Source: Ottowia thiooxydans DSM 14619
GTDB lineage: Bacteria > Pseudomonadota > Gammaproteobacteria > Burkholderiales > Burkholderiaceae_C
Assembly: GCF_000422885.1 (NCBI RefSeq)
Contig: NZ_AUGX01000008.1
Span: 310,001-374,000 of the forward strand
Direction of reading: 5' to 3'
Length of the DNA stretch: 64,000 nucleotides
In this document: positions 48,582 to 63,622 of the stretch, in pieces
Position numbering within the stretch: position 1 is the stretch's first letter
Layout of the letters: the number at the start of each line of letters is the position of its first letter
Notes under the pieces: model-generated
Told to the model about the DNA's origin: nothing
What the model saw: only the letters and a program-made list of their open reading frames with translations
The model's database searches: none
Made by a program: the position numbers and the translations under genes

Positions 48582-48622
48582 GTCGGTCTCCGAAATCAAG
48601 GGACGTGGCGCGGCCCCACGGC

Positions 48623-49483
48623 TCATTGGTCTTTCCGTATTAATGCATCGATCGACTGGAGGGCACGGAGCGCACCGCAAGCCAATCCCACATCAAAAGG
48701 CGTTGGAACACTGAACTCCCTGGGATTGATGCGAACCAACCGCCCGCCAAATGCCTGAATGACTCTGTGGCTGAAATGACGCACAGAAGGAATGGCCGTT
48801 CCGGCGCCAATTTCTACAACAACGGGCCTGCGCGCGCCCAAAAGCCAATGCTCCAGCTGCCGGCTTTGCGCGGCTTGGCGGCTATCGTTCCAATGCCAAT
48901 CGTTGAACATCAACACGTTGGGTCGTGCCAGACCGCCACAGTGAGGGCATGCCGGGGGCGAGTTAAGCAATAAGCAGCGCTTTTCATCCCCCTCGGGGAC
49001 AAAGTCATCGGCGGGCCAAATGGCATCACTACAAGGCTTTGAGCATTGCAGGTGAAGAATGGAACCATGGCATTCGTTGATTCTGGTTTGGGCGAACTCT
49101 GCTCTTTGGAACTGCCCATCGACATTGCTCGTGAACACGGCACTGCCCAGTTCCATGCGCTCTCCCCAGGCTTTCAATATTTGGAAGCCTGCATGAGGTT
49201 GCGTTGCTCGGTATAGCTGGAGCCGGTGACCATAGAACCCCCAGGCGCGCTCAGGATGAGCACGAAATGCTTCCGGGGAGGCAATGCTGGTGAAATCTAC
49301 TTGCTCATGCGCCAAGGCTGGATAGGCTTTCCAAAAACCTTCTGTGCCACGAAAGTCTGGCAAGCCTGAGTCAACGCCCATCCCTGCTCCCGCTGCCACT
49401 ATCAAAGCGTCAGACTGCATCACCAGGTCGGCAGCGTGCTCCAGGTCACCCGCATTGATTGGCGTGCTTGCTGTGGATTTCAT
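48623..49483 (-). CDS. Sir2 family NAD-dependent protein deacetylase
   Basis: 286-residue sirtuin. NAD-binding motifs: VAAGAGMGVDSGLPDFRG near residue 30, TSNVDGQFQRAEF, and the catalytic His in NECHGSILHLQC. Zinc site: Cys in LQCSKPC and CPHCGG. The usual GAGxSxxSGIPDFR reads GAGMGVDSGLPDFR, so the first Ser is Gly. It could remove acyl groups from lysines, for example from acyl-CoA synthetases, and the window also holds a Pat-like acetyltransferase at 13046. 41 bp upstream of the deiminase gene on the same strand. ATG 49483 has AGGA upstream. Confidence 0.87.
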   Translation of the reverse strand: MKSTASTPINAGDLEHAADLVMQSDALIVAAGAGMGVDSGLPDFRGTEGFWKAYPALAHEQVDFTSIASPEAFRAHPERAWGFYGHRLQLYRATQPHAGFQILKAWGERMELGSAVFTSNVDGQFQRAEFAQTRINECHGSILHLQCSKPCSDAIWPADDFVPEGDEKRCLLLNSPPACPHCGGLARPNVLMFNDWHWNDSRQAAQSRQLEHWLLGARRPVVVEIGAGTAIPSVRHFSHRVIQAFGGRLVRINPREFSVPTPFDVGLACGALRALQSIDALIRKDQ

Positions 49484-49621: not shown

Positions 49622-49929
49622 GTAAAACCAGCTCACTGTCTCGGGTTCTGGGGCTCAAGTCGGCAGGCGCGCCTGCGTCAGTCTCTCCCAGCTAGAGCCG
49701 TGGAGCTTTGATGTTTCTCGCGCTTCGAAGCGCTGACCAGGACTGCGCGTAGCGAAACCATGGAGGAAGTCGCACAGATAGCAACCTGTCCGCTATGCGC
49801 CTCAGCCTTACCCAGCGCATCAGGGATGAGTCATGCCTTGAGGGTTCTAGGTGACCAAGCTCCTGCCGCGCCCGTTGACAGCCCAAAACGTAACGCCAAG
49901 CATTAGGGAAATCCATGATTATGGATGTA

Positions 49930-49976
49930 TTTACTTTTATTCTCACACCCATACAATTCATCCAAAATCATGAATT
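49930..49976 (+). promoter_or_regulatory. Promoter with overlapping 22-bp inverted repeat
   Basis: TTTACT (49930-49935), 16 bases, TACAAT (49952-49957). An inverted repeat AATTCAT-N8-ATGAATT (49955-49976) overlaps the -10 and extends downstream, 33 bp before the first start codon of the operon. Size, symmetry and place fit repression by a MarR-family dimer, and a MarR gene (63113-63622) lies at the end of the operon. Confidence 0.55.
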
Positions 49977-50009: not shown

Positions 50010-52166
50010 ATGGCTGAGCGTTCGTTCGTCGAGGAAGTCAAGAAACTCCGCCTGGGTGAGGGCGAGGTTTTTCATGGAGAAGGCATTCTTGCCGTTACCA
50101 AGGCCTTGCTTGAGTCGGGGGTGAACTACGTCGCTGGCTATCAGGGCTCGCCTATCTCGCACTTGATGGATGTGCTGGCCGATGCACAGGACATTCTTTC
50201 CGAGTACGGCATCCGCTTCGAAAATAGCGCCAGTGAAGCCACGGCAGCCGCCACGCTGGCCGCTTCCGTGAACTACCCGTTGCGCGGCGCGGTGACTTTC
50301 AAGGCCACGGTGGGCACGAACGTGGCTTCTGACGCGCTTGCCAACCTGGCCTCCGGTGGCGTGACTGGCGGCGCACTCATCATCGTGGGAGAGGACTACG
50401 GTGAGGGTTCCTCCATCATGCAAGAGCGCAGCCACGCGTTCGCGATGAAGTCGCAAATGTGGATGCTCGATCCGCGCCCCAACCTGCCGAGCATTGTGCA
50501 GGCGGTGAAGGATGGGTTTGACCTGTCTGAGGCGAGCCATACACCCGTCATGTTGCAGCTGCGCATTCGCGCCTGCCATGTACACGGTCAATTCGTAGCG
50601 GCGAACAACCGCCGTCCTAGCTACAGCATCGCTGAAGCGATGGAGCAGCCGCAGCGCGATGTGAGCCGCATTGTGTTGCCGCCGGCCAGCTTCGCGCACG
50701 AGCAGGAAAAGGTGCATGAACGCTGGCCGGCCGCGCTGCGCTTCATTACCGAGCGCGGCCTGAACGAGTTCTTTTCAGAAGATGCGGACGATGTGGGGCT
50801 TATCGTGCAGGGTGGTTGCTACAACACGCTGATTCGCGCGCTGCAACATTGCGACCTGGCCGACGCTTACGGCAACACGCAGATCCCGCTGTACGTGATG
50901 AACGTGGCCTATCCGCTGGTCGACAATGAATTGCTGCGCTTTTGCACAGGCAAGCGGGCGGTATTGCTGATCGAGGAAGGGCAACCCAACTTTGTTGAGC
51001 AGAACGTCGCCACGGTGCTACGCCAAGCCAGCTCCGGCACTCTATTGCACGGCAAAGACCTCTTGCCTATGGCTGGCGAATACACCACCGCCACCGTGCT
51101 CAAGGGCCTGAGAGGTTTCCTGCGCAAGTACGACAAGCTGCCGGCATCGGCCACTCCTGCACGCAAAACCATTCCTTTGGTGGAGATGCAAGCCCAGCCA
51201 GCTTTGCCTATTGAAGCTAATGTGCATGGCCGCCCTCCTGGGTTTTGCACTGGCTGCCCTGAGCGCCCGATCTTCACGGCCATGAAGCTGGTTGAGAGAG
51301 AGCTGGGCGAGCATCACGTCAGCGCCGACATCGGTTGCCATCTCTTTTCCATCTTGCCACCGTTCAACCTGGGCAACACCACCATGGGCTATGGCCTGGG
51401 TGCAGCCGGCGCAGCGGCGCTTAACGTGGATGCGAGCAAGCGGGCGATCTCGGTGATGGGCGATGGCGGCTTCTGGCACAACGGCCTGACGAGCGGCATT
51501 GCCAACTCGGTTTTCAACCGCAGTGACAACCTGACCATCGTCGTTGACAACAGCTATACCTCGGCTACTGGCGGGCAAGACATCTTGTCATCCAAGGCAC
51601 AAAACCCTACGCGCAGCACCAATCATGCGATTGAGCAAGCCGTTCGTGGTGTAGGGGTGCAATGGGTCCAGACCGTGCGCCGCACCTACGACCTGAAAAC
51701 CATGGTGAGTACGCTGCGCGAGGCTCTGACCTCCACCGTTAAGGGCCCCAAGGTTTTGATCGCGCAGAGCGAGTGCATGTTGAACCTGCAGCGGCGCGAA
51801 AAACCCAAGGTTCGCCAGGCTATCGCCAGTGGCAAGCGCGTGGTGCGCGAGCGATTCGGTATAGATCCGGACACCTGCACCGGTGACCATTCCTGCATCC
51901 GCCTGTCTGGTTGCCCCTCCTTGTCAATCAAATCCAATCCCGACCCTCTGCGTACCGATCCGGTGGCGACGGTGCTTGACAGCTGCGTAGGTTGCGGTCT
52001 GTGTGGTGAGGTTTCGCACGCGGCTGTGCTTTGCCCATCGTTCTACCGCGCGCAGATTGTCAGCAACCCCAGTCGCTGGGACCGTTGGCTGCAGCGGTTA
52101 CGCACGGCCGTCATCGGCCGGCTGCAACAGCGCGATGCCCGTCGGCGTGCGCGATACGCCTTCTAA
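50010..52166 (+). CDS. Indolepyruvate ferredoxin oxidoreductase alpha-like subunit
   Basis: 718 residues. Thiamine-diphosphate enzyme of the 2-oxoacid:ferredoxin oxidoreductase family; IorA converts arylpyruvates to arylacetyl-CoA with reduced ferredoxin. N-terminal pyrimidine-type domain from about residue 25 (GVNYVAGYQGSPISHLMDVL); TPP motif VMGDGGFWHNGLTSGIAN near residue 483 with IVVDNSYTSATGGQ. The C-terminal iron-sulfur part has C-x5-C-x5-CP and CVGCGLC-x8-CP; the first group lacks the CxxCxxC pattern of archaeal IorA. First gene of the operon, 8 bp before the beta-like gene. True substrate unknown; arylpyruvate is inferred from the family. Confidence 0.85.
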   Translation: MAERSFVEEVKKLRLGEGEVFHGEGILAVTKALLESGVNYVAGYQGSPISHLMDVLADAQDILSEYGIRFENSASEATAAATLAASVNYPLRGAVTFKATVGTNVASDALANLASGGVTGGALIIVGEDYGEGSSIMQERSHAFAMKSQMWMLDPRPNLPSIVQAVKDGFDLSEASHTPVMLQLRIRACHVHGQFVAANNRRPSYSIAEAMEQPQRDVSRIVLPPASFAHEQEKVHERWPAALRFITERGLNEFFSEDADDVGLIVQGGCYNTLIRALQHCDLADAYGNTQIPLYVMNVAYPLVDNELLRFCTGKRAVLLIEEGQPNFVEQNVATVLRQASSGTLLHGKDLLPMAGEYTTATVLKGLRGFLRKYDKLPASATPARKTIPLVEMQAQPALPIEANVHGRPPGFCTGCPERPIFTAMKLVERELGEHHVSADIGCHLFSILPPFNLGNTTMGYGLGAAGAAALNVDASKRAISVMGDGGFWHNGLTSGIANSVFNRSDNLTIVVDNSYTSATGGQDILSSKAQNPTRSTNHAIEQAVRGVGVQWVQTVRRTYDLKTMVSTLREALTSTVKGPKVLIAQSECMLNLQRREKPKVRQAIASGKRVVRERFGIDPDTCTGDHSCIRLSGCPSLSIKSNPDPLRTDPVATVLDSCVGCGLCGEVSHAAVLCPSFYRAQIVSNPSRWDRWLQRLRTAVIGRLQQRDARRRARYAF

Positions 52167-52174
52167 GACCACCA

Positions 52175-53674
52175 ATGGCAACTCTGCAACCTATCAAGAT
52201 TGCCATTCTCGCCATGGGCGGCGAGGGTGGCGGCGTGTTGGCCGACTGGCTTGTGGACCTTGGAGAATTCAACGGCTACATCGCTCAGACCACCTCGGTA
52301 CCAGGCGTGGCTCAACGTACAGGCGCCACCATCTACTACGTAGAGTTGTATCCGCAGGCCCGTGCCCAGCAAGATGGTGGCCAACCCGTGCTGGCGCTGA
52401 TGCCGCTGCCCGGCGACGTGGACGTGGTACTGGCGTCCGAACTCATGGAGGCTGGCCGTGCCGTGCAGCGTGGTCTGGTCACGCCAGATCGCACCACACT
52501 TGTGGCGTCCACCCATCGCGTTTATTCCATTGGCGAAAAGACGGCGATGGGCGACGGGCGCGTAGACAGCACCGAGCTGCTCGCCCATTCAAAAAAATCG
52601 GCTCAGCGCTTTGTGGGCTTTGATATGGCCCAACTGGCTGAGCAAGCCGGCAGCGTAGTGAGCGCCGCGCTGTTCGGTGCGCTGGCAGGCACAGGCGCAC
52701 TACCCTGGAACCGTGCGCAATTTGAAGCCACGATTGAACGCGGCGGCGTAGGCGTCAAATCCAGCCTCAAGGCGTTCGGCGCGGCCTATGCGCGCGCGGC
52801 TGCGCCAGAGACGACGCCTCAGGTCGATGAGACGACAGCCGCCCCGGAGCCAGCGCCTAGTGACCCCAGCGTGATTGCACTGCTGGCGCGTGTGCGCGGC
52901 TTTCCCGAAGATGCACGCACGCTGATCACGGAAGGTGTGCGCCGTCTGATCGACTACCAGGATCCACCCTACGCTTCGCTTTACCTCGACCGCCTGGCTG
53001 CTGTGCAGACATTGCCGGGCGACGGCACCGGAGCATTGCTACGCGACACCGCGCGCTACCTTGCGCTGTGGATGGCCTATGAGGACACCGTGCGGGTAGC
53101 CGATCTCAAGACACGTGGCTCCCGCTTTGCGCGTGTGCAGTCTGAAGTGCGGCTGCAATCTGACCAGCAGATCGCCATTCACGAGTTCATGCACCCCCGG
53201 ATTGAAGAGATTTGTGACACCCTCCCGGTTGGCCTGGGCCGGTGGTTGGCCAAACCGCACGCGGTCCATCGCATGGTGGCGCGCTTCACGCAGCATGGGC
53301 GCACAGTTTCAACAAGTTCGTTGCGCGGCTTTCTGCTCTTGTGGGGGCTGGCGCGGCTGCGGAGCATCCGACGAGGATCGCTGCGCTACCAGAACGAGAA
53401 CATGCGCATAGAGCAGTGGCTGGAGCAGATTGCCAGCGCAGCCGCTGTCAATCCGGCGCTGGCTGCCGAAGTCGCTCAGTGCCAACGTCTGGTCAAGGGG
53501 TATGGCGACACGCATGCGAGGGGGCTGGCGAACTACCAGTTGCTCATGTACACGGTGCGCCGCGCCGGCTCCACGCTGGCACCGGCCACGCTGCGCGCAC
53601 TGCGCGAAGCCGCTCTCGCAGACGAACACGGCAAACAGTTGCAGGCAGAGCTCTCCCGACACGCGTTGGGTTGA
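52175..53674 (+). CDS. Indolepyruvate oxidoreductase beta-like subunit (DUF6537 type)
   Basis: 499 residues. The N-terminal ~200 residues form the gamma-type 2-oxoacid oxidoreductase domain (ILAMGGEGGGVLADWLVDLG; TTSVPGVAQRTGATIYYVEL) that binds CoA and partners the alpha-like subunit. The long C-terminal part (about 250-495) is the helical extension found in proteobacterial IorB proteins (DUF6537), with YDPPYASLYL-like text (YQDPPYASLYLDRL). ATG 52175 follows the alpha-like stop by 8 bp; the frame is open upstream but inside the first gene. No ferredoxin gene follows, so the electron acceptor is open. Confidence 0.82.
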   Translation: MATLQPIKIAILAMGGEGGGVLADWLVDLGEFNGYIAQTTSVPGVAQRTGATIYYVELYPQARAQQDGGQPVLALMPLPGDVDVVLASELMEAGRAVQRGLVTPDRTTLVASTHRVYSIGEKTAMGDGRVDSTELLAHSKKSAQRFVGFDMAQLAEQAGSVVSAALFGALAGTGALPWNRAQFEATIERGGVGVKSSLKAFGAAYARAAAPETTPQVDETTAAPEPAPSDPSVIALLARVRGFPEDARTLITEGVRRLIDYQDPPYASLYLDRLAAVQTLPGDGTGALLRDTARYLALWMAYEDTVRVADLKTRGSRFARVQSEVRLQSDQQIAIHEFMHPRIEEICDTLPVGLGRWLAKPHAVHRMVARFTQHGRTVSTSSLRGFLLLWGLARLRSIRRGSLRYQNENMRIEQWLEQIASAAAVNPALAAEVAQCQRLVKGYGDTHARGLANYQLLMYTVRRAGSTLAPATLRALREAALADEHGKQLQAELSRHALG

Positions 53675-53686
53675 ACAGGAATAGAT

Positions 53687-54655
53687 ATGTCCACCATCCT
53701 CATGCGCGTCACCCGGATCGAGATGCTGAACCCTCTGGTGCGTCGATTCACGTTGCAAAGCGCCCAAGGCAGCACGCTGCCACCTTTCGACGCCGGCGCC
53801 CATGTGCGAGTTCGCACTGGCCAACCCGATGAATGGCGCCACTATTCTCTGATCGATTTTTCCACCTCGGTCCAGGCCGATCCCGCACCTCTTACCTACA
53901 CGATAGCGGTGCGCCTGGACACAGAGGGCCGCGGAGGTTCGCGCTTCATGCATGGGCTAGACGAAGGTGATGAGATCACCATCGAACCGCCACGCAATGA
54001 CTTCCCGCTGGCCGCCCATGAAGGCTGCGCAGTATTGGTCGCAGGTGGCATTGGTGTCACGCCGCTTGCCAGCATGGCGGCGCGATGCCTGGCGCAGAGT
54101 CGGCCCGTACGCATGATTTACGCAGGCCGTAGCCAATCATTGATGGCCCTGCTACCTGAGCTGCAAACACTGCTCGGCAACGAGCTCCGCGTACACACCG
54201 ATGAGGAAGCCGGCGAACCGCTGAACATAGCCGCGCTGCTGGATGAATGCGGGCCCAGCGATCGCCTGTATGTTTGCGGCCCCCAACCCATGCTGGACGC
54301 CGTGCTGGCAGCAGCGCAGGCCCGGGCCTGGCCCAGCGAGCGTGTGCACTTCGAATTATTCACGGCTCCCGTACCCCAAGCAGGCGACCATGCCTTTGAG
54401 GTGGTGCTGTCGCAAAGCGGCCAGAGCTACACGGTGCCCGCAGACCAGAGCATCCTGGAGTGCCTTATCGACCAGGGATGTGATCCGATGTTTGACTGCA
54501 AGCGCGGTGAGTGTGGCGTATGCGCCGTGTCCGTGCTTGAAGGCGATATTGACCACCGCGATTACGTGCTGAACGCCAGCGAAAGAGCGGCCGGCAACGT
54601 GATTCAGATCTGTATCTCGCGCGCCAAGGGGCAGCGCCTGGTACTGGATCTCTGA
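53687..54655 (+). CDS. Phthalate-dioxygenase-reductase-type oxidoreductase
   Basis: 322 residues, VanB/PDR class. FMN/FAD site WRHYSLIDF near residue 47, NAD-binding VLVAGGIGVTPLASMAARCL near 113, and a C-terminal plant-type 2Fe-2S cluster with CKRGECGVC (about 272-280) and a fourth Cys in IQICIS. It hands electrons from NADH to a Rieske oxygenase. The likely partner is the alpha/beta oxygenase encoded 1 kb downstream, with only the Bug gene between. 12 bp after the beta-like gene. Confidence 0.9.
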   Translation: MSTILMRVTRIEMLNPLVRRFTLQSAQGSTLPPFDAGAHVRVRTGQPDEWRHYSLIDFSTSVQADPAPLTYTIAVRLDTEGRGGSRFMHGLDEGDEITIEPPRNDFPLAAHEGCAVLVAGGIGVTPLASMAARCLAQSRPVRMIYAGRSQSLMALLPELQTLLGNELRVHTDEEAGEPLNIAALLDECGPSDRLYVCGPQPMLDAVLAAAQARAWPSERVHFELFTAPVPQAGDHAFEVVLSQSGQSYTVPADQSILECLIDQGCDPMFDCKRGECGVCAVSVLEGDIDHRDYVLNASERAAGNVIQICISRAKGQRLVLDL

Positions 54656-54702
54656 TTTCCCCACCCCCCAGAAAACTAAACCACCACTCCAGGAGACACG
54701 AG

Positions 54703-55662
54703 ATGATGCATAAAACTTTGAGACGCCTAGCGGCGCTGGCGCTTTTCCCACTGGCAGCTCTGGCTAACGACGGCAAGCCCGTGGAGTGGGTCGTGGGGTA
54801 TGCCCCGGGTGGTGGGTCTGATGTGGTCGCCCGCATGCTGGCCGACGCTATGAGCAAGACCATGAATCAGTCCTTCATCGTCGTGAACAAGCCGGGCGCA
54901 GGGGCCAACATCGCTGCGGACTACGTGGCGAAAACGCGCAGCCCTGAGAACACGGTTTCCACAGTCGATTCCGCGGTACTCGCGGCCAACCCATTTCTCT
55001 ACAGCAAGCTCACCTACAGTGCGGAAAAGGATTTTGCCCTGGCGGGAATGATCGCTCGCTTTCCTCTGGTGCTTGTCGTAGCGCCGTCTGTTCCCGTCAA
55101 GAACTTGCAGGAATTTCTGGCATGGTCCAAGAGTGACCCCAAGGGCACCAGTTACGGCACGCCTGGCGCTGGCAGCCCTCATCACCTCGCGGTGGAATTG
55201 TTTCGCGCCCAGACCGGGCTGAATCTCATCCACGTGCCCTATCGCGGCGCCGCACCCGCTCTCGCAGACGTGGCCGGTGGCCAGGTGCCCTTCATGTTCG
55301 TAGACACATCCAGCGGCGGCCCTTTCATCAGCTCAGGCAAGGTCCGGGCTATCGGTGTGGCCAGCCCGCAACGCCTCAAATCGTTGACAGATGTACCCAC
55401 ACTGGCCGAACAGGGCTTGCCTGGCTTTGAGGCGTATGCCTGGCAGGCGCTTGTCGTACCTTCAGCCACCAAGCCCGCTACTGTAGAAGCCTTGAATAAG
55501 GCGCTGAACGTGGCGCTGAACTCCGACGACGTGAAAGCACGCATGCAGACGCTGGGCATAGAGCCATTGCCGACCACGCCCTCTGAGGCAACGCGTTATG
55601 CCAAGCAGGAACGCGATCGCTGGGGTCGCGTGATCCGCGATGCCAACATCAAGCTGGACTGA
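54703..55662 (+). CDS. Bug family (TctC-like) substrate-binding protein
   Basis: 319 residues. Signal peptide ends near residue 21 (ALFPLAALA). The mature part has the TctC features VEWVVGYAPGGGSDVVARML, NKPGAGANIAADYVA and HVPYRGAAPALADVAGGQVP. It probably binds the pathway substrate, a carboxylate, in the periplasm. No tctA/tctB in the window. AGGAGA precedes the ATG. It is embedded in the operon between the reductase and the oxygenase alpha gene, 4 bp before the latter, so it is tied to this pathway. Confidence 0.9.
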   Translation: MMHKTLRRLAALALFPLAALANDGKPVEWVVGYAPGGGSDVVARMLADAMSKTMNQSFIVVNKPGAGANIAADYVAKTRSPENTVSTVDSAVLAANPFLYSKLTYSAEKDFALAGMIARFPLVLVVAPSVPVKNLQEFLAWSKSDPKGTSYGTPGAGSPHHLAVELFRAQTGLNLIHVPYRGAAPALADVAGGQVPFMFVDTSSGGPFISSGKVRAIGVASPQRLKSLTDVPTLAEQGLPGFEAYAWQALVVPSATKPATVEALNKALNVALNSDDVKARMQTLGIEPLPTTPSEATRYAKQERDRWGRVIRDANIKLD

Positions 55663-55666
55663 AACC

Positions 55667-56998
55667 ATGAGCCACTACCACGATAGCCCCGCGGCGGTGG
55701 CCGCACTCGTGCGTGACACCGAGGTGCACAAGGACTGCTACATCAGCGAGGAAATCTTCGCGCTGGAAATGGAGCAATTGTTCGCCAACACCTGGGTGTA
55801 TGTGGGCCATGCCAGCCAGATTCCCAAATCCGGAGATTTCTACGGCACCACGGTTGGAGACCAGCCGGTGGTCATGGTTCGCCATACGGACGCCAGCATC
55901 AAGGTGCTCTACAACCGCTGTGCGCACAAAGGTGTGCAGATTGCACCCGAGGGATGCGGTAACACTGGAAAGTTCTTTCGCTGCCCCTACCACGCCTGGA
56001 CCTACCGCACCGACGGAAAGCTGTTGTCCATCCCGCTCAAGAAGGGCTATGACAACACTGGCTTCGAGAACTGCGAGGCCAGTCGCGGTCTGGCCGCTGT
56101 GGGGGCGGTGGAGGTCTACCGCGAGTTCGTGTTCTGCAGGCTTAACCCTGAGGGCATTTCGTTCGCGGAATTCTTTGGCCCCTCGCTGTCTACCCTGGAC
56201 AACATGGTGGATCGCTCACCCGAAGGGCGCCTTGAGGTCGCTGGTGGCGTCATGCGCTATATGCACCACTGCAACTGGAAGATGCTGGTGGATAACCAGA
56301 CCGACACCTGCCACCCCATGGTGGCGCACGAGTCGTCGGCCGGCACGGCTGTGAAGGTCTGGCAGGAAGCGCCAGAGGGCACGCCCAAACCGATGGCGGT
56401 CGAGCTGTTTGCGCCTTTTGTCAGCCCTTATGAGTTCTTCGAGAACATGGGCATTCGCGTCTGGGAAAACGGCCACGGCCATACCGGCGTCAGCGACTCC
56501 ATTCACGCGGCCTATTCACCCGCGCCGGGTTACTGGGAGAGCATGGTGGCGGCCTATGGGGAAGAGCGCGCGCAGGCCATCCTTGGCGAGGTTCGGCACA
56601 ACACGGTGTACTTTCCCAACATCATGGTCAAGGGGCCGATCCAGACCTTGCGCTTATTCAAGCCCTTGGCCGCCAACAAGACCCTGGTGGAAAGCTGGAC
56701 CTTCCGCCTCGTTGGCGCGCCCGATCTTCTGCTGGAGCGCACGCTCATGTACAACCGCCTCGTCAATGCGCCGACTTCGGTGGTTGGGCATGACGACCTG
56801 GAGATGTATGAACGTGCCCAGCAAGGCTTGCATGCGCGTGGCGCTAATTGGGTCAATGTGGGTCGGCTGTATGACAGCGCTGAACACGGCCAGACCGAAG
56901 CCGTCACCAACGGCACCAACGAATGGCAAATGCGCAGCCAGATGCGCGCCTGGGTGCGCTTCATGACAGCGGGCATGCCACAAGGAAAATCCGCATGA
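55667..56998 (+). CDS. Rieske ring-hydroxylating oxygenase, alpha subunit
   Basis: 443 residues. Rieske cluster: CAH and, 18 residues on, CPYH (NRCAHKGVQIAP, FRCPYHAWTY). Mononuclear iron site: D-x2-H-x4-H in DNQTDTCHPMVAHE, so all ligands are present. The enzyme incorporates O2 into an aromatic or indolic ring, fed by the reductase at 53687. ATG 55667 begins 4 bp after the Bug stop. ATGA overlap with the beta gene. Substrate is not readable from sequence; similarity in layout to oxygenases of IAA or aromatic-acid pathways is only suggestive. Confidence 0.9.
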   Translation: MSHYHDSPAAVAALVRDTEVHKDCYISEEIFALEMEQLFANTWVYVGHASQIPKSGDFYGTTVGDQPVVMVRHTDASIKVLYNRCAHKGVQIAPEGCGNTGKFFRCPYHAWTYRTDGKLLSIPLKKGYDNTGFENCEASRGLAAVGAVEVYREFVFCRLNPEGISFAEFFGPSLSTLDNMVDRSPEGRLEVAGGVMRYMHHCNWKMLVDNQTDTCHPMVAHESSAGTAVKVWQEAPEGTPKPMAVELFAPFVSPYEFFENMGIRVWENGHGHTGVSDSIHAAYSPAPGYWESMVAAYGEERAQAILGEVRHNTVYFPNIMVKGPIQTLRLFKPLAANKTLVESWTFRLVGAPDLLLERTLMYNRLVNAPTSVVGHDDLEMYERAQQGLHARGANWVNVGRLYDSAEHGQTEAVTNGTNEWQMRSQMRAWVRFMTAGMPQGKSA

Positions 56999-57477
56999 GC
57001 CCACCTACCGATGCCCAATTGGTGAACTTCGTACTGGACGAAGCTACCCTGCTCGACGAACTGCGCTTCGAAGATTGGCTAGCGCTTTTCAGTGAAGACG
57101 GCCATTACTGGATGCCGCTCACGCACGGCCAGTCTGATCCCCGGCTACAAGCCTCCCTGATGTATGAGGACAAGTTGCTGCTGCAGGTGCGCGTGGCGCG
57201 CCTGGCCGGTGCACGCACCTTCTCGCAGCAGCCAGTCAGCCGCTGTCACCACTTGCTGCAGCAGCCTCGCGTGCTGACACGCGATGAGGCTGCGGGTGTG
57301 TACACCTGCCGCACCTCCTTTCACTACGTCGAGGCCCGGCAAGACACGCAGACGCTGTACGCCGGATGGACCACCCATACATTGGTGCAGCAGGCAGATG
57401 GTTTGCGCATCCGTTTGAAGCGCGTCGATCTCGTCAATTGTGATGCGGCCTTCGGCAGCATACAGCTCTTCATGTAA
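56995..57477 (+). CDS. Rieske ring-hydroxylating oxygenase, beta subunit
   Basis: 160 residues, the structural subunit with a cone-shaped SnoaL-like fold. Features: FVLDEATLLDELRFEDWLAL near the N-terminus (the ring-hydroxylating beta family phrase), DGHYWMPLTHGQSDP, and a C-terminal RIRLKRVDLVNCDAAFGSI. The ATG overlaps the alpha stop by four bases, so the two subunits are made in balance. Followed 7 bp later by the acyl-CoA ligase. Confidence 0.88.
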   Translation: MSPPTDAQLVNFVLDEATLLDELRFEDWLALFSEDGHYWMPLTHGQSDPRLQASLMYEDKLLLQVRVARLAGARTFSQQPVSRCHHLLQQPRVLTRDEAAGVYTCRTSFHYVEARQDTQTLYAGWTTHTLVQQADGLRIRLKRVDLVNCDAAFGSIQLFM

Positions 57478-57484
57478 GACCCAC

Positions 57485-59086
57485 ATGCATACCCCCAACT
57501 CACTGGCGGACGCCTTCGCGCCGGCCGATCGCACGCTGCCGCGCATGCTTCAGAACCAGGCTGCGCGCTTTGGCGACCATACGCTCTTTGTTGCCGGCGC
57601 GGAGCGCTGGAGTTTTGCCGATGCGCTACGCATGGCGGGTGCTTACGGCGCGGCGCTACAACACGCGGGCGTACAAGCTGGTGACCGCGTGGCACTGCTG
57701 TGTTCGAACCGCGCGGAGTTCATGCAGGTTGTGCTGGGTTGTGCATGGATCGGCGCTGTTGCGGTACCGATCAACACCGCCTCACGCGGGAGCCAGCTGC
57801 AGCACATCCTCTCCAACTCAGGCGCCCGCTTGCTGGTGACTGAGACCGAGGGCTTGCAAGCTGTTCGCGCCCTCGCCGTTCTGGATGCCCCCGCGCTGCC
57901 GCTACAGACGATCTGGCTGCTCGATATGCCCCTCGAAGGCGAGGCTGGCTGCACGCCCTTCCCACCAGAGCCCACCGAGGTCGCCAAGCCAGCCGCTGTG
58001 CGCCCGGGCGACACGCTGCTCATTCTCTACACCTCTGGCACCACTGGCTTGTCCAAGGGCGTGTGCTGCCCCCATGCGCAATACTTCTGGTGGGGCGCGC
58101 ACAGCGGCAGCTTGCTGGGTTTGGGACAAGGCGAGGTGCTGGTAACCACGCTGCCGTTGTTTCATACGAATGCGATGAACGCATTCTTCCAGGCCTTGCT
58201 GAGCGGCTCCACACTGATCGTGGAAAAGCGCTTCTCAGCTTCTGCTTTCTGGGAATCGCTGGTGCGACACCAAGCCACGGTAACCTACGTGCTGGGCGCG
58301 ATGGTGCCGATCTTGTTGTCCAAGGATGCGACCGTGCACGACCGGGGCCACCGTGTGCGCGTCGCCCTTGCACCGGGCGTGCCATCGCAGTTTCATGCGG
58401 TGTTCACTGAGCGCTTTGGCATGCGCTTGCTGGATGGGTATGGTTCGACCGAGACGAACTTTGTGATCGGGCTGGATGCTGAAAAACGCCCTGGCAGCAT
58501 GGGGCGTATTGGTGATGGCTTCGAGGCTTTCGTCGCTGACGAAGATGACAATCCGCTGCCCCCAGGCCAGCCGGGCGAGCTACTGCTGCGTGCACGCGAC
58601 CCCTTTGCCTTTGCCACCGGTTACTTTGGCTTACCCGACAAGACAGTCGAGGCCTGGCGCAATCTGTGGTTCCACACGGGTGACCGTGTGGTCTGCGATG
58701 CCGACGGCTATTTCACCTTCGTGGACAGGCTCAAGGATGCGATCCGGCGGCGCGGCGAGAACATCTCGTCCTACGAAGTAGAGCAAGTGCTCTTGAGCCA
58801 CCCGGCTATTGCGGTAGCAGCCGTGTTCCCAGTCAAGAGCGAGATGGCCGAGGACGAAGTGATGACGGCCATCGTGCTGCGCGAGGGCGCAAGCCTGGAT
58901 GCCGTGGCGCTGATGCAATTTTGCGAGCCGCGCATGGCGTATTTCGCGGTTCCGCGCTTCGTCGAATTCATGGCGCAACTGCCTGCCACCGAGAACGGCA
59001 AGATTCAAAAGTTCAAGCTACGTGAACGCGGCACCAGCCAACAAACCTGGGACCGCGAGGCCGCAGGCTACCAACTCAAGCGCTGA
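57485..59086 (+). CDS. AMP-forming acyl-CoA ligase
   Basis: 533 residues, adenylate-forming enzyme of the FadD/CaiC type. P-loop LYTSGTTGLSKGV (about 180-192), LLDGYGSTETNFV, and hinge/A8 motif DRLKDAIRRRGENISSYEVE. The catalytic Lys is present in ENGKIQKFKL near the C-terminus. It should activate a carboxylate as its CoA thioester. Lying between the oxygenase and the thiolase-like gene (3 bp after it), it probably activates either the starting acid or a ring-cleavage product. Substrate unknown. Confidence 0.9.
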   Translation: MHTPNSLADAFAPADRTLPRMLQNQAARFGDHTLFVAGAERWSFADALRMAGAYGAALQHAGVQAGDRVALLCSNRAEFMQVVLGCAWIGAVAVPINTASRGSQLQHILSNSGARLLVTETEGLQAVRALAVLDAPALPLQTIWLLDMPLEGEAGCTPFPPEPTEVAKPAAVRPGDTLLILYTSGTTGLSKGVCCPHAQYFWWGAHSGSLLGLGQGEVLVTTLPLFHTNAMNAFFQALLSGSTLIVEKRFSASAFWESLVRHQATVTYVLGAMVPILLSKDATVHDRGHRVRVALAPGVPSQFHAVFTERFGMRLLDGYGSTETNFVIGLDAEKRPGSMGRIGDGFEAFVADEDDNPLPPGQPGELLLRARDPFAFATGYFGLPDKTVEAWRNLWFHTGDRVVCDADGYFTFVDRLKDAIRRRGENISSYEVEQVLLSHPAIAVAAVFPVKSEMAEDEVMTAIVLREGASLDAVALMQFCEPRMAYFAVPRFVEFMAQLPATENGKIQKFKLRERGTSQQTWDREAAGYQLKR

Positions 59087-59089
59087 AGC

Positions 59090-60268
59090 ATGGCCCACTT
59101 CCAACAACGCAAGGGTTACGAAGGCGTGGCCGTCGCGGTGCCCGTGACGGTGCCCTACGAGCGCTATTCCACGCGCGGCGCGCACTGGTTCATTGGCCGC
59201 GCGTTGCACGCACTCCTGGAGCAATCCGGCTTGCCCAAGAACGCCATCGACGGGCTAACGATCAGCAGCTTCTCACTGGCCCCGGATACCGCTGTAGGTG
59301 TCACCCAGCACTTGGGCCTCTCCCCTCGCTGGCTGGATCACATTCCCACCGGTGGAGCCAGCGGCGTGATGGCACTGCGCCGCGCCTCACGGGCCATTCA
59401 AGCTGGTGACGCAGACATCGTGGCCTGCATCGCGGCCGATACCAACCACGTCGACTCATTTCGCCAGACCCTTGGCGCGTTCAGCCACTTTGCACGTGAT
59501 GCGACCTACCCGTATGGTGCGGGCGGGCCGAACTCCATGTTTGCGTTCATCACCGCGCACTACATGAGAACCTGTGGGGCTGCTCGTGAGGATTTCGGAC
59601 GTATCGCCGTGGACCAACGCAGCAACGCCCTGCGCAACCCCAACGCCTTGTTCAAGAAGCCGCTGACTCTGGACGAATACATGGGCGCCAAGGCGATCTC
59701 GGCCCCTATCCATCTTTTCGACTGCGTGATGCCCTGCGCAGGCGCTGAGGCTTTTCTGGTGATGTCCGAGACGCGTGCACGCGACATGGGGCTGCCCCAT
59801 GTGCTCCTACACGGAGCCATCGAGCGCCACAACGCCTACGCTGAAGATCCGGTCATGCTGCGCGGCGGCTGGCGCATGGATCGCGACGAGCTCTATGCCA
59901 TGGCCGGCGTACAGCCGGCTGATATCGACTTCGTGCAAACCTATGACGACTACCCCGTGATCGTGATGATGCAGTTCGAAGACTTGGGCTTTTGCGATAA
60001 AGGTGAGGGGCCGGCCTTCGTGCGCGCACACCGCATGACACATGACGGCGACTTTCCCAACAACACCAGCGGGGGCCAGCTCTCTGCTGGCCAAGCCGGT
60101 GCGGCGGGAGGGTTCCTGGGAATGACCGAGGCCATTCGTCAGCTGACCGGTGCCGCTGGCGAGAGGGCTGTAGCGAACGCAAAGCTGGGCCTGGTGGGAG
60201 GCTTTGGCATGGTCACGTACGACCGCTGCCTTTGTACGGGCGCTGTGATTCTGGGGAGCAGCACATGA
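59090..60268 (+). CDS. Thiolase-like protein without nucleophilic Cys (Ltp/SCPx type)
   Basis: 392 residues, thiolase fold, closest in pattern to lipid-transfer-protein thiolases. The nucleophile position (CxSG in thiolases) reads GGASG, so Gly89 replaces Cys. The C-terminal GHP reads GQA (Gln335 for His). The NxSGG motif is kept (NTSGG, 325-329), as is the Ltp phrase QTYDDYPVIVMMQFEDLGF with two Tyr. Loss of Cys with retention of Tyr is known from Ltp2-like retro-aldolases, which need a DUF35 partner, and such a domain is encoded in the next gene. So a retro-aldol or other non-thiolytic cleavage of an acyl-CoA is inferred. ATGA overlap with the next gene. Confidence 0.82.
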   Translation: MAHFQQRKGYEGVAVAVPVTVPYERYSTRGAHWFIGRALHALLEQSGLPKNAIDGLTISSFSLAPDTAVGVTQHLGLSPRWLDHIPTGGASGVMALRRASRAIQAGDADIVACIAADTNHVDSFRQTLGAFSHFARDATYPYGAGGPNSMFAFITAHYMRTCGAAREDFGRIAVDQRSNALRNPNALFKKPLTLDEYMGAKAISAPIHLFDCVMPCAGAEAFLVMSETRARDMGLPHVLLHGAIERHNAYAEDPVMLRGGWRMDRDELYAMAGVQPADIDFVQTYDDYPVIVMMQFEDLGFCDKGEGPAFVRAHRMTHDGDFPNNTSGGQLSAGQAGAAGGFLGMTEAIRQLTGAAGERAVANAKLGLVGGFGMVTYDRCLCTGAVILGSST

Positions 60269-61518
60269 GCATCCCGATGCCACGCCCCGCGCGTAAGAAC
60301 CCGATCCTTCGTACACCGCAGATCAATCTGCCGCCCAGTGCCCGTGGCCGCGTGGCCTTGGGGCTTACAGCCGCTGCGGCCGAGGGTCGCTTCGAGCTGC
60401 AAGCCTGCGAGGACTGCGGTGCTGTGCAGTACCCCCCGCGCGAGGCCTGCTTGCGCTGCGTGTCAGCACGGCTTCGCTGGCGCCAGCAGACAGGTAGCGG
60501 CCAATTGTTGGCTGAGACCACACTGGACCACAGCAACGACCTGTACTTCCGCGAGCGCCTGCCGTGGCGCCTGGGCATGGTGCAGTTGGACGAGGGCCCT
60601 AGCGTGATGGTGCACCTGCACAGCGCTGTGGGCGCTGCACCAACCCGCGTGCGGGTGGGCGCCAGGATCGACCGGGCCGGTCAGGCCGTATTGATCGGAT
60701 TTCCCGAGAAAGCGAGTGAACACATGGAAGACGACAAGATGCTGCGTGAAATGACCAGCAACCCGCGCTTTCGCAAGGTGCTGGTGACTGATGGCAAGAC
60801 CCCCGTGGGCCAAGCCGTAGTGCACGCGCTGAGAAAGGCAGGCGCTGACCTTGTATGGGTAGGCCATGCCGAGCCGTGGAAAAAAGCCCCTGGGCTCGCC
60901 GAGCTCACTGCGTTGCCTAGCATTTCCTTGGTACCCCTGGACCTGAGCGACGAACGCTCGGTCATGGAGCTGGCTGGCCAGATCGGCGGCAAGGTCGATA
61001 TTGTGATCAACACCGCAGAACTGCACCGGGGCTTCGGCATCGCAGCCCGGCGTGGCACCGATGTGGCCAAGGCAGAGATGGAGATCAACTACTTTGGACT
61101 GCTGCGGCTGGCCCAGGCCTTCGGGCCGGCATTGCGCGGTAGATCAGCAGATGGCGCGACCCATGCTTGCGCCTGGGTCAACGTGCTGTCCATCTATGCG
61201 CTGGCCAACTACCCGGCTCAAGGCACGTTCTCAGCGTCCAAGGCAGCTGCGCTGTCGCTGTCGCAATGTCTGCGCGCGGAGATGCGGCCAGCCGGCGTGC
61301 GCGTGGTCAATGTGTTCCCCGGCCCCGTGGATGACGAATGGAACCAGAACATGCCACCGCCAAAACTCAGCCCGGCTGCGCTGGCCTCAGCCATCGTCAA
61401 GGCCTTGCAAGACGGGGTGGAAGACGTTTACCCCGGAGACATTGCGCAAGAGTGGCTGGCCCGCTGGCGCGACAACCCAAAAGTACTAGAGCGTGAACTC
61501 GCAGCCGGAGGATCTTGA
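60265..61518 (+). CDS. DUF35 Zn-ribbon/OB domain fused to degenerate SDR
   Basis: 417 residues. Residues 35-150: zinc ribbon (Cys48, 51, 62, 65) then an OB fold, the DUF35 pair that partners thiolase-like proteins. Residues 170-400: short-chain dehydrogenase fold with nucleotide motif VTDGKTPVG, a weak form of TGxxxGxG, and NTAE where NNAG is usual. Ser309 and Lys326 of the catalytic set are kept, but the Tyr, 13 after the Ser, is Phe322 (TFSASK). The domain may bind NAD(P) or CoA without oxidoreductase activity. Translationally coupled to the thiolase-like gene, its probable partner. Confidence 0.82.
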   Translation: MSIPMPRPARKNPILRTPQINLPPSARGRVALGLTAAAAEGRFELQACEDCGAVQYPPREACLRCVSARLRWRQQTGSGQLLAETTLDHSNDLYFRERLPWRLGMVQLDEGPSVMVHLHSAVGAAPTRVRVGARIDRAGQAVLIGFPEKASEHMEDDKMLREMTSNPRFRKVLVTDGKTPVGQAVVHALRKAGADLVWVGHAEPWKKAPGLAELTALPSISLVPLDLSDERSVMELAGQIGGKVDIVINTAELHRGFGIAARRGTDVAKAEMEINYFGLLRLAQAFGPALRGRSADGATHACAWVNVLSIYALANYPAQGTFSASKAAALSLSQCLRAEMRPAGVRVVNVFPGPVDDEWNQNMPPPKLSPAALASAIVKALQDGVEDVYPGDIAQEWLARWRDNPKVLERELAAGGS

Positions 61519-61519
61519 G

Positions 61520-62338
61520 ATGGCGACACCCCCCCCAATTGCTTCGCCCATTCTGGGCAACCTCGTTGCCGCTCTGGCCACTGGTCAAATCCGGGTAGTG
61601 GATCTCACACAGACGCTGGTGCCGGAGTTCCCCGCCATTGTGCTGCCGCCGGAGATGGGCCAGTGCCAGCCATTCCGTGTTGAGCAAATTTCAGCCTACG
61701 ATGAACGCGGTCCGGGCTGGTACTGGAACAACTTCTCGTGCGGTGAACACACGGGAACGCATTTTGATGCACCCATCCACTGGATTTCGGGCCGCGACCT
61801 TCCAAACAATTCTGTAGACACCATTGATCCTCAGAAGCTCGTGGCTCCGGCCTGCGTCATCGATTGTTCGAAGCAAGCCGCAGCTGACCCCGACTACCTC
61901 ATGACCGTGGCCGACATCGAGGCCTTCGAAGCTTCACACGGGCGCATCCCGGCGGGCGCCTGGGTGCTGATGCGTACCGACTGGTCGCACCGGTGGTCCA
62001 AAGGCCAGGACGGGGAAGCCTTTCAGAATTTTGACGCCACTGGACAACACACCCCAGGGCCCAGCACAGAAGCCGTGCGCTTTCTCGTGGAGCAACGCGA
62101 CGTGCTGGGTTTTGGGTCCGAAGCCATTGGCACTGACGCCGGACAGGGCTACCACCTGCTGCCACCCTACCCCTGCCATTCACTGATGCACGGGGCTGGC
62201 AAGTACGGGCTGCAATGCTTGACCAACCTGGACCAGTTGCCCCCCACAGGCGCCGTGCTGTTCAGTGCACCGCTCAAGATCCAGAAAGGCAGTGGAAGCC
62301 CATTGCGCGTGCTGGCCCTGGTAGGAGCAGGCGCATGA
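61520..62338 (+). CDS. Cyclase family metallohydrolase
   Basis: 272 residues. The metal-binding signature is GEHTGTHFDAPIHW, with His77, His81, Asp83 and His87. The family includes kynurenine formamidase and isatin hydrolase and opens amide or lactam bonds, or hydrolyses ring intermediates. An isatin- or formamide-type substrate would fit an indolic pathway, given the indolepyruvate-oxidoreductase-like genes, but that is a guess. GGAGG precedes ATG 61520, 1 base after the previous stop. ATGA overlap with the SDR gene. Confidence 0.85.
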   Translation: MATPPPIASPILGNLVAALATGQIRVVDLTQTLVPEFPAIVLPPEMGQCQPFRVEQISAYDERGPGWYWNNFSCGEHTGTHFDAPIHWISGRDLPNNSVDTIDPQKLVAPACVIDCSKQAAADPDYLMTVADIEAFEASHGRIPAGAWVLMRTDWSHRWSKGQDGEAFQNFDATGQHTPGPSTEAVRFLVEQRDVLGFGSEAIGTDAGQGYHLLPPYPCHSLMHGAGKYGLQCLTNLDQLPPTGAVLFSAPLKIQKGSGSPLRVLALVGAGA

Positions 62339-63069
62339 ACGCGCCCGTCCACAAGGTCGCCGCTGTCACGGGCGGTAGCGCTGGCATTGGCAAGGCCATC
62401 TGCGAACAGCTACTGGAACAAGGCTACGAGGTCGTTTCGCTTTCACGCCGTGCCAGCCCACTCACGCATCCACGCTTGCACAACATTGAGGTCGACCTCT
62501 CCGACCGCGCGGCCACCAGCGAGGCAGCGCGCGACATGGCCCGCCGCTTCGAGGTCACAACGCTGGTGCACAACGCCGGTGTGATCCGCGCGGCGCTACT
62601 GCCCGATGTCAAGCTTTCAGATCTGGACGCGCTGGTTGACCTGCACCTTGGCTGCGCTGTGCAGTTGCTTCAAGCCGCACTGCCGACAATGCGTGCACGG
62701 CACTTTGGTCGCGTTGTGCTGCTGTCCTCGCGTGCAGCGCTCGGCTTGCAAACGCGTACCAGTTACTCGGCCACCAAAGCAGGCATGCTGGGCATGGCGC
62801 GCACCTGGGCGCTGGAGCTGGCGCCCGAGGGCATCACGGTGAATGTGGTGGCACCGGGCCCCATCCGCACGGATATGTTCTACGACGTGGTGCAAAAGGA
62901 CAGTGACAAGGAGCGCCAGCTCGCCGCCTCGGTGCCCGTCAAGCGCCTAGGTGAATCCGCAGACGTGGCACGTGCCGTTTCCTTCTTTGCCGATGCGGCC
63001 AACGGATTCGTCACCGGCCAGGTACTGTATGTCTGCGGTGGCACCAGCGTCGGCAGCCTGGCTCTGTAG
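62335..63069 (+). CDS. Short-chain dehydrogenase/reductase
   Basis: 244 residues, classical SDR. Cofactor motif VTGGSAGIG (about 10-18), HNAG for NNAG, catalytic Ser in VVLLSSRAAL and Tyr/Lys in SYSATKAGML, then PGPIRTDMF. All catalytic residues are present, unlike in the fused SDR two genes upstream. It probably oxidises a hydroxyl or cis-dihydrodiol, or a beta-hydroxyacyl-CoA, made in the pathway. Last gene of the operon. Convergent with marR (43-bp gap). Confidence 0.88.
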   Translation: MNAPVHKVAAVTGGSAGIGKAICEQLLEQGYEVVSLSRRASPLTHPRLHNIEVDLSDRAATSEAARDMARRFEVTTLVHNAGVIRAALLPDVKLSDLDALVDLHLGCAVQLLQAALPTMRARHFGRVVLLSSRAALGLQTRTSYSATKAGMLGMARTWALELAPEGITVNVVAPGPIRTDMFYDVVQKDSDKERQLAASVPVKRLGESADVARAVSFFADAANGFVTGQVLYVCGGTSVGSLAL

Positions 63070-63112
63070 CTTTTACTTTGGCGGCTTAATGCGTAGCCTG
63101 CCCATCAGGTGA

Positions 63113-63622
63113 TCAGCCTGCGGGCCGATGCAGTTCAATGATGCGCCTCAAGGTGACCTTGAGCGCTTCGGCCCGCTTTAAACCAAAGGGTTGCAACACA
63201 CGATGTTCGTGCTCTTTGGCCTTATTGATCAAACTGGCCACAATGGTTTTCCCAGCCTCAGTGATGCGCACCATGGTGATGCGGCGATCAGTTTCATGCG
63301 GAAAACGCTCCACATAACCCCTCGCCTCCATGCGATCGAGCAGGCGCGTGACAGTGGGTTGTTTACTGACGGAAATCTGCGCAAGCCCACCAATGCTGAT
63401 CCCGGGCTGGCCGGTCAATGAAGCCAGAACCCGCCATTCAGTGACAGAGAACCCAGCCAACTGCACCTCGCGATGGAACTCCGTTGATATGAGCTTGCTC
63501 GCTTGCGCCAGCAACGCAGGCAGGTAGTCATCGACGAAGGGCAAAGATAGCTCTTCATCGAACTCAGGGGCGTCTTCATCGGGACGGGCGTTGTCCCGAT
63601 GAGAGAGGGGTGATGCGGTCAT
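63113..63622 (-). CDS. MarR family transcriptional regulator
   Basis: 169 residues. Winged helix from about 55 to 120: FSVTEWRVLASLTGQPGISI, LAQISVSKQPTVTRLLDRME and the wing RGYVERFPHETDRRITMVRI. The N-terminus is acidic. MarR proteins repress catabolic operons and release DNA on binding the aromatic acid or its CoA ester. Convergent with the operon, whose promoter carries a suitable inverted repeat (49955-49976); the regulatory link is inferred. TATGAT on the minus strand at about 63668-63673 may be its -10. Confidence 0.88.
   Translation of the reverse strand: MTASPLSHRDNARPDEDAPEFDEELSLPFVDDYLPALLAQASKLISTEFHREVQLAGFSVTEWRVLASLTGQPGISIGGLAQISVSKQPTVTRLLDRMEARGYVERFPHETDRRITMVRITEAGKTIVASLINKAKEHEHRVLQPFGLKRAEALKVTLRRIIELHRPAG

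Follow-up and report, generated by a model that had tools for sequence, protein, structure and literature searches.

An iad-type indole-3-acetate operon in Ottowia thiooxydans and a candidate route from isatinate to 2-aminobenzoyl-CoA

Which compound does an eleven-gene operon of Ottowia thiooxydans DSM 14619 degrade, and by what chemistry? The operon lies in a 64-kb stretch of contig NZ_AUGX01000008.1 (positions 310,001 to 374,000), called the window here, from a genome of 7.05 Mb. It comprises eleven plus-strand genes and one minus-strand MarR gene, and an earlier note on this DNA took it for an undescribed operon for an aryl or indolyl acid. By our analysis it is almost certainly an iad-type operon for the degradation of indole-3-acetate (IAA), made up of iadA, iadB, iadC, a Bug protein gene, iadD to iadJ and iadR. 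What is new would be a mechanism for steps left open in published iad work: IadG and IadH probably act as a retro-aldolase, and IadA with IadB (IadAB) probably turns isatinate into 2-aminobenzoyl-coenzyme A (CoA). The whole pathway, meaning iad membership together with both of these roles, is given a probability of about 0.65.

Identity of the operon

The twelve genes, all intact open frames, are as follows (window coordinates; G and L numbers below are our handles for genomes and loci).

iadA, 50010-52166, plus strand: thiamine pyrophosphate (TPP)-binding alpha subunit of a 2-oxoacid oxidoreductase, annotated IorA; putative isatinate oxidoreductase
iadB, 52175-53674, plus strand: POR + DUF6537 beta subunit, annotated IorB (NF006179, 714.6 bits, cut-off 348)
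iadC, 53687-54655, plus strand: oxygenase reductase, FNR-type with 2Fe-2S, 66% identical to that of Variovorax L120
Bug/TctC-type binding protein gene, 54703-55662, plus strand: PF03401, outside the known iad core, possible uptake protein
iadD, 55667-56998, plus strand: Rieske oxygenase alpha subunit, predicted to act on IAA
iadE, 56995-57477, plus strand: oxygenase beta subunit, PF00866
acyl-CoA ligase gene at the iadF position, 57485-59086, plus strand: NF004808 over cut-off, of a lineage other than Variovorax IadF (35%)
iadG, 59090-60268, plus strand: Cys-less thiolase-fold protein, putative retro-aldolase
iadH, 60265-61518, plus strand: DUF35 (zinc ribbon and OB fold) fused to a degenerate SDR domain, predicted partner of IadG
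iadI, 61520-62338, plus strand: isatin hydrolase, expectation value (E) about 1e-111
iadJ, 62335-63069, plus strand: SDR dehydrogenase with intact catalytic residues
iadR, 63113-63622, minus strand: MarR repressor convergent with iadJ, best match 7kfo (E 2.3e-57)

Four-base ATGA overlaps occur at three junctions (56995-56998, 60265-60268 and 62335-62338). The G+C content of the block, 60-63.5% in 2-kb steps, is within or slightly over that of the remainder of the window. The layout and the protein families that the earlier note had read from the DNA, from the arylpyruvate-oxidoreductase-like pair to the MarR gene, were right.

IadD matches the solved Variovorax IadD (9o71, 7yls) with E about 1e-180 and is identical at 247 of 435 ungapped positions (57%). 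Of 14 residues that PMC10374108 lists as metal ligands or as part of the IAA pocket, it keeps 13; the exception is Leu211, which is Gln. The best structure matches of IadR are the MarR_73 set (7kfo and others), and IadR retains the Ser and Arg at which mutation does away with IAA binding; from the alignment, chain 7krh appears to be the non-binding variant. IadI matches isatin hydrolases (5nna, 5nmp, 4j0n; PMC6117287) across residues 12-268 of 272. Their metal motif, HxG[T/A]HxDxPxH, is found in 48 of 48 rows, as HxGTHxDxPxH in the window, and at that level no difference was noted. The iadA and iadB genes, as iotA/iadA and iorB/iadB, are exclusive markers of iad-like loci (PMC9613470), and in the window they adjoin the oxygenase genes.

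In Variovorax paradoxus ISL-81 (L120) the order is R (minus strand) A B C D E F G H I J, and identity to the window is 70% for R, 78% for A, 68% for B, 66% for C, 57% for D, 49% for E, 35% for F, 82% for G, 78% for H, 79% for I and 82% for J. The order C to J in the window is that of Variovorax with one Bug gene inserted between C and D; iad-type order was found in Achromobacter as well. Order was counted in 54 loci (L009-L063) with iadD on the plus strand, several of them shortened by contig ends or by the fetched stretch: C-D-E is ordered in 48, D to J in 32 and A to J in ten. The block, for which the earlier note had proposed a synteny check, is thus conserved among loci and no chance grouping.

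The name iad is said to come from Nascimento 2021. The locus iadABCDEFGHIJKLMNR was named in Achromobacter and dissected in V. paradoxus CL14 (PMC9613470, PMC12633357, PMC10374108). Work by others in Variovorax established that IadCDE oxidises IAA, that F-J are required for anthranilate and that IadR represses. The window shares with this locus the A-J order, the IadD active site, a MarR_73-type repressor, the isatin hydrolase and the iadAB markers. On sequence comparison it is a new member of the described iad system, and it would be expected to degrade IAA. The claims that the operon is undescribed and that no named pathway has this set do not survive, in view of the iad loci of Achromobacter and V. 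paradoxus CL14; the alpha subunit falls with IadD of known function, which the earlier note had itself named as an outcome that would refute it. Its guess of an indolic acid is borne out by IadD, IadR, IadI and gene order, as is its suggestion that the cyclase-family protein is an isatin hydrolase. The absence of iacA and iacB that it reported holds for the operon: by Pfam and NCBIfam, neither these nor iacI are among its genes, the remainder of the genome not having been searched for them. An iac-type operon was rejected on this ground.

Candidate chemistry below the oxygenase

In the proposed pathway IadR would keep the operon off until IAA binds. NADH would supply electrons, by way of IadC, to the Rieske oxygenase IadDE for the oxygenation of IAA, and IadJ would then yield dioxindole-3-acetate, as shown in Variovorax and assigned to the window by homology. 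The ligase at the iadF position would give dioxindole-3-acetyl-CoA, as published inference has it, and IadG with the DUF35 half of IadH would split this into isatin and acetyl-CoA by a retro-aldol reaction. IadI would convert isatin to isatinate (2-aminophenylglyoxylate, an aryl 2-oxo acid), and a CoA-acylating IadAB would convert isatinate to 2-aminobenzoyl-CoA and CO2, with two electrons going to an unspecified carrier. A separate host cluster with a PRK08255-type aryl-CoA monooxygenase/reductase could process 2-aminobenzoyl-CoA further.

The published order runs IadCDE, IadJ, IadF, IadG ('ketothiolase'), IadH ('alcohol dehydrogenase') and IadI ('amidase') (PMC12633357). Residues were counted over rows without internal stops after duplicates had been removed. 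The position of the thiolase nucleophile is Ala in 43 of 43 aligned IadG rows, the window included, as the earlier note's Cys-less call implied, and a thiolase was rejected for IadG. The base Tyr of the YDxx motif is kept in all 42 rows; with a DUF35 partner, this is the arrangement of Sal and Ltp2. Among solved structures, one complex, 9myr (the CtSal steroid aldolase with its DUF35 protein Shy), provides the best relative both of IadG and of the IadH N-terminal part, each in a chain of its own, and the Cys-less thiolase fold, DUF35 partner and base Tyr are common also to Ltp2-ChsH2(DUF35), 6ok1 (PMC12329534).

The zinc ribbon of IadH is complete in 37 of 37 rows. In its SDR half Asp replaces the first Gly of the NAD motif in all 37, the catalytic Tyr is found in three, and the active-site Lys and Ser are found in 21 and 35. 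The DUF35-SDR fusion seen in the earlier note is thus real, with an intact DUF35 and a degenerate SDR half, and a classical dehydrogenase was rejected. The SDR half is missing from IadH of Achromobacter aestuarii (L019, 14717-15082) and Alcaligenes pakistanensis (L024, 14657-15055), and in L114 a distant IadG (39%) goes together with a zinc-ribbon protein of 102 residues. As a beta-hydroxy thioester at a quaternary carbon, dioxindole-3-acetyl-CoA has no way of forming a beta-keto thioester, and the direct way to cleave it would be a retro-aldol reaction. IadG/IadH is therefore read, with good probability, as a retro-aldolase giving isatin and acetyl-CoA and not as a ketothiolase plus dehydrogenase.

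IadAB carries the features of the 2-oxoacid oxidoreductase superfamily: a TPP GDG...N motif, Fe-S cluster motifs and a POR domain. The GDG motif, the second cluster (CxxCxxC) and the POR domain are common to IorAB. IadA differs in scoring 280.2 bits against its closest equivalog, TIGR03336 (IOR_alpha), far under the cut-off of 650.9, and in having Asp for one Cys in its first Fe-S motif (CxxDxxC, residues 623-629 in the window) in 40 of 40 rows from both clades; IadB differs in having DUF6537. No solved structure matched IadA at E <= 0.001. No assigned role for iadAB and no isatinate to 2-aminobenzoyl-CoA step was found in the literature matches listed, which exclude subscription journals and supplements, and the names iadA and iadB are absent from the main text of PMC12633357.

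Isatinate is an aryl 2-oxo acid, so IadAB is expected to track isatin hydrolase and not the IAA oxygenase. IadA matches of 62% and above were scored as iad-clade IadA, and those of 51-60% were kept apart; G036 (60%, part of the protein, no IadI) and G120 (52-59%, in pieces) were counted as the other type, and G127 (76% over 521 residues) was retained. The 150 genomes of the family set hold iadD in 11, IadI in 16 and iad-clade IadA in 18. All 16 IadI genomes carry iad-clade IadA, and six of them are without iadD; in four of these six the IadI and IadA genes are 13 bases to 4.2 kb apart. IadI was found in none of the 30 genomes with only the other IadA-like type. The 398 genomes of the Pseudomonadota set, for which the two best IadA candidates per genome were scored, hold IadI in 25 (27 with the weak matches in G266, 40%, and G354, 45%), IadA in 25, both in 23 and iadD in eight. 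Only six of the 23 have iadD; in 15 of the other 17 the two genes lie 0.01-6.4 kb apart by listed coordinates. Fisher tests on the co-occurrence of IadI and IadA give 7e-33 when genomes are counted and 5e-18 when genera are (of 213 genera, 16 have IadI, 16 have IadA and 14 have both).

A tree of 39 IadA-like proteins places 34 in one clade (support 100/100) and five apart, with a long-branch warning for the smaller clade; L122, L123, L125 and L126, from genomes without iadD, fall inside the larger one. Each of 20 iad-locus genomes examined has an IadA-like gene somewhere (of the other type in G013); these 20 are a subset of the 80 loci found, picked mostly since iadA was not seen beside iadD. 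Homologues of iadA and iadB in Bradyrhizobium japonicum rise 31- and 8-fold with IAA (PMC3788728).

Gene neighbourhoods point in the same direction. L125 and L126 hold, in order, an SDR gene, a StyA-like flavin adenine dinucleotide (FAD) monooxygenase (a family match under the equivalog cut-off), a flavin reductase, a CrtI-like FAD enzyme, isatin hydrolase, an outer-membrane protein, A and B. In L122, which has the same set, isatin hydrolase precedes the CrtI-like gene and one frame on the opposite strand precedes A. These clusters suggest a route from indole to isatin in which neither IAA nor indolepyruvate would take part. The genomes of L111-L113 carry iadD elsewhere; the loci themselves show a run of isatin hydrolase, a CrtI-like gene, a short gene (in L113 a MarR gene), A and B. 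A 4HBT thioesterase gene adjoins iadB in L115 and L127 and is one gene off in L117 and L124 (Bug gene between) and in L116/L149 (MarR gene between). A PRK08255-family gene is in the iad cluster or within about 5 kb of it in L127, L116/L024/L149, L023 and L042.

The PRK08255 family is named for salicylyl-CoA 5-hydroxylase/oxidoreductase, and we take its architecture to be that of 2-aminobenzoyl-CoA monooxygenase/reductase. That enzyme is a 170-kDa homodimer, a size that fits PRK08255 (PMC4539516), and hydroxyanthraniloyl-CoA is mentioned as its product (PMC3534580). The host has a PRK08255 gene over cut-off (786 residues) on a separate contig, followed by MarR, enoyl-CoA hydratase, acyl-CoA dehydrogenase and benzoate-CoA-ligase-family genes, the ligase being under its cut-off. 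The entry compound of the aerobic 2-aminobenzoyl-CoA pathway (PMC4539516, PMC3534580) is the predicted IadAB product; unlike the IadAB route, that pathway starts from anthranilate by an ATP-using ligase, whose ATP the IadAB route would save.

In Alcaligenes pakistanensis L149 (G003:C5:163000-182900) the iad genes share a single 20-kb cluster with what is likely a lower pathway of the gentisate type: R (minus strand), A, B, MarR, thioesterase, PRK08255, gentisate-dioxygenase-like, FAA-hydrolase, nitrilase, I, C, D, E, F, G, H (a DUF35-only protein) and J. G108 (L127), without iadD, has A, a permease, B, thioesterase, PRK08255, dioxygenase, FAA hydrolase and nitrilase. Aryl-CoA 5-hydroxylase, thioesterase, a gentisate-dioxygenase-like enzyme, FAA hydrolase and a nitrilase-type amidase would make up a gentisate-type branch in both, and this could account for the old report of gentisate from indole in Alcaligenes. 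A gentisate route lacking a known enzyme is on record (PMC6221969).

At 8485-14401 of L129 (G000:C29:44000-63000) the host genome has a further IadAB-like pair (58% and 44%), which belongs to the other clade. It adjoins a branched-chain-type binding protein of an ATP-binding cassette (ABC) transporter and an LldD-like flavin mononucleotide 2-hydroxyacid dehydrogenase, and perhaps serves an aryl-2-oxoacid route such as that of mandelate.

Weighing the assignments

Several observations count against the roles proposed here for IadAB and IadG/IadH. The strain with iadC-K2 and no iadAB restored anthranilate fully (PMC12633357), so IadAB is dispensable for anthranilate in that strain. The same strain built up C8H7NO3, which fits isatinate and was shown not to be N-formylanthranilate (PMC12633357); this is what loss of IadAB might leave behind, and overexpression alone could also be its source. 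The co-occurrence counts are uncorrected for kinship, eight of the 17 phylum genomes being of one genus, and the family and phylum sets overlap. IadA occurs without IadI in G425, G134 and G119, and IadI without IadA in G490; G401 has iadD (42%) and IadI and no IadA, G086 (a short contig) and G487 have iadD with neither, and G013 has iadD with only the other-type IadA. The iad-type thioesterase has no close match in the host genome (best 23%). As for IadG, its motif is YDDY where CtSal has YDCY and Ltp2 YDHF, and the second catalytic residue, Cys in CtSal and Tyr344 in Ltp2, is not kept; IadG is therefore taken to work like the Sal/Ltp2 retro-aldolases and is not filed as one of them, and the DUF35 of the window differs from theirs in its fusion to a pseudo-SDR. 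C8H7NO2, isatin plus two hydrogens, was reported after IadF-H (PMC12633357). A plain retro-aldol does not give it, so that some factor other than IadH would be needed to reduce isatin.

Indolepyruvate is likewise an aryl 2-oxo acid, and it is a known IAA precursor. IadAB of the same iad operon could be a true indolepyruvate oxidoreductase joining tryptophan breakdown to the pathway, in keeping with its annotation (TIGR03336 as closest equivalog of IadA, PRK08312 for IadB). We consider this quite unlikely: IadA scores 280 bits where 651 are called for, the product would be indoleacetyl-CoA whereas IadDE takes free IAA, and the tie to isatin hydrolase in genomes without iadD and in indole-oxygenase-type clusters would be left unexplained. 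Acyl-CoA formation is the rule in the 2-oxoacid oxidoreductase superfamily, which counts against a decarboxylation of isatinate by IadAB without a CoA ester, directly to 2-aminobenzaldehyde or anthranilate. Anthranilate is the reported end product (PMC9613470, PMC12633357) and C7H7NO, the formula of 2-aminobenzaldehyde, was detected (PMC12633357), but C7H7NO built up in the strain without iadAB, and the presence of genes for a thioesterase and an aryl-CoA monooxygenase next to iadAB speaks for a CoA ester; a reaction without one is very unlikely.

The annotation of IadG as a working thiolase and IadH as a working dehydrogenase (PMC12633357) draws on the requirement for both in forming anthranilate in Variovorax, on C8H7NO2, which fits a reductive step, and on the Lys and Ser that many IadH rows keep. 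It is unlikely to be correct given the missing nucleophile of IadG, the altered NAD motif and mostly absent Tyr of IadH, the loss of the whole SDR half in L019 and L024, and the tertiary alcohol of the substrate, from which no beta-keto ester can form. That the operon is undescribed and serves another aryl or indolyl acid, as in the earlier note, is extremely improbable. Divergence from Variovorax (ligase 35%, IadE 49%, IadD 57%) and a Bug protein replacing an ABC binding protein could be quoted for it, but the 13 IadD residues, the IAA-contact residues of the repressor, the isatin hydrolase, the iad markers and the gene order are all present. As the likeliest reading we retain IAA as the substrate, a retro-aldolase IadG/IadH and an isatinate-oxidising IadAB.

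Local differences and significance

The window departs from the described locus in several ways. Its iadR is 3′ of iadJ and convergent, as in L010, and not divergent before iadA, a position that does not define iad operons. A Bug gene between C and D was found elsewhere only in L009 and L010 among the 54 iadD loci; the known locus has an ABC binding protein as IadK2. The Bug gene that the earlier note counted in the set is thus present, and was rejected as a member of the iad core. The window showed no iadK-N. The ligase at the iadF position is 33-36% identical to those of Variovorax and Achromobacter and 70-78% to those of L009, L010 and L023 (Ottowia sp. GY511). Two unrelated ligase lineages occupy this position, and L022 has one gene of each (56% and 34%). 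IadD resembles that of Achromobacter (78-80%) more than that of Variovorax (57-58%), whereas for IadG-J Variovorax (about 76-83%) is closer and Achromobacter (59-69%) more distant, and the operons are therefore mosaics. A second, diverged iadD (51-55%) lies 3′ of iadJ in Rhodoferax L014 (17504-19305) and Variovorax L053 (11630-12934).

Two similar palindrome-like sites span 35-99 bases 5′ of iadA.

Candidate IadR operator, 49956-49975, plus strand: imperfect palindrome ATTCAT-N8-ATGAAT, 35-54 bases 5′ of iadA
Second operator-like site, 49911-49930, minus strand: three mismatches to the first site; maximum 0 in 100 shuffles

Only the second site is independent, because the search pattern came from the first. 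The first has 13 bases in common with the region 5′ of iadA in L009, and a short core, CCAAAATCATG, is present in only 2 of 149 loci.

Around the operon, an agmatine-deiminase-type gene (PF04371) at 47490-48680 on the minus strand is broken across two frames, with profile positions 1-178 in 47928-48680 and 205-321 in 47490-47855, by a frameshift or an assembly error. The DNA 3′ of the window (L109) holds genes for an amino-acid transporter, a methyltransferase-like protein, a BenC-like reductase and recG, and adds no information on the operon. A PADLOC scan of IadJ gave no match.

Operons of the iad type aid root bacteria in reversing auxin damage, and the nine-gene part iadC-K2, without iadAB, has already been transferred to other strains (PMC12633357). 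Should IadAB remove isatinate in the form of 2-aminobenzoyl-CoA, the transferred cassette would be incomplete and anthranilate would be partly a bypass product, and the missing link in the route of indole degraders from isatin to 2-aminobenzoyl-CoA would be found. The reading of IadG/IadH would correct the published chemistry of side-chain removal. We lean towards a joint view in which IadAB, as an isatinate:acceptor oxidoreductase, would serve the degradation of auxin and of indole alike as a lower step in aerobic Proteobacteria, with a gentisate branch in Alcaligenes and G108, and IadG/IadH would be a further DUF35-dependent retro-aldolase, one with a pseudo-SDR.

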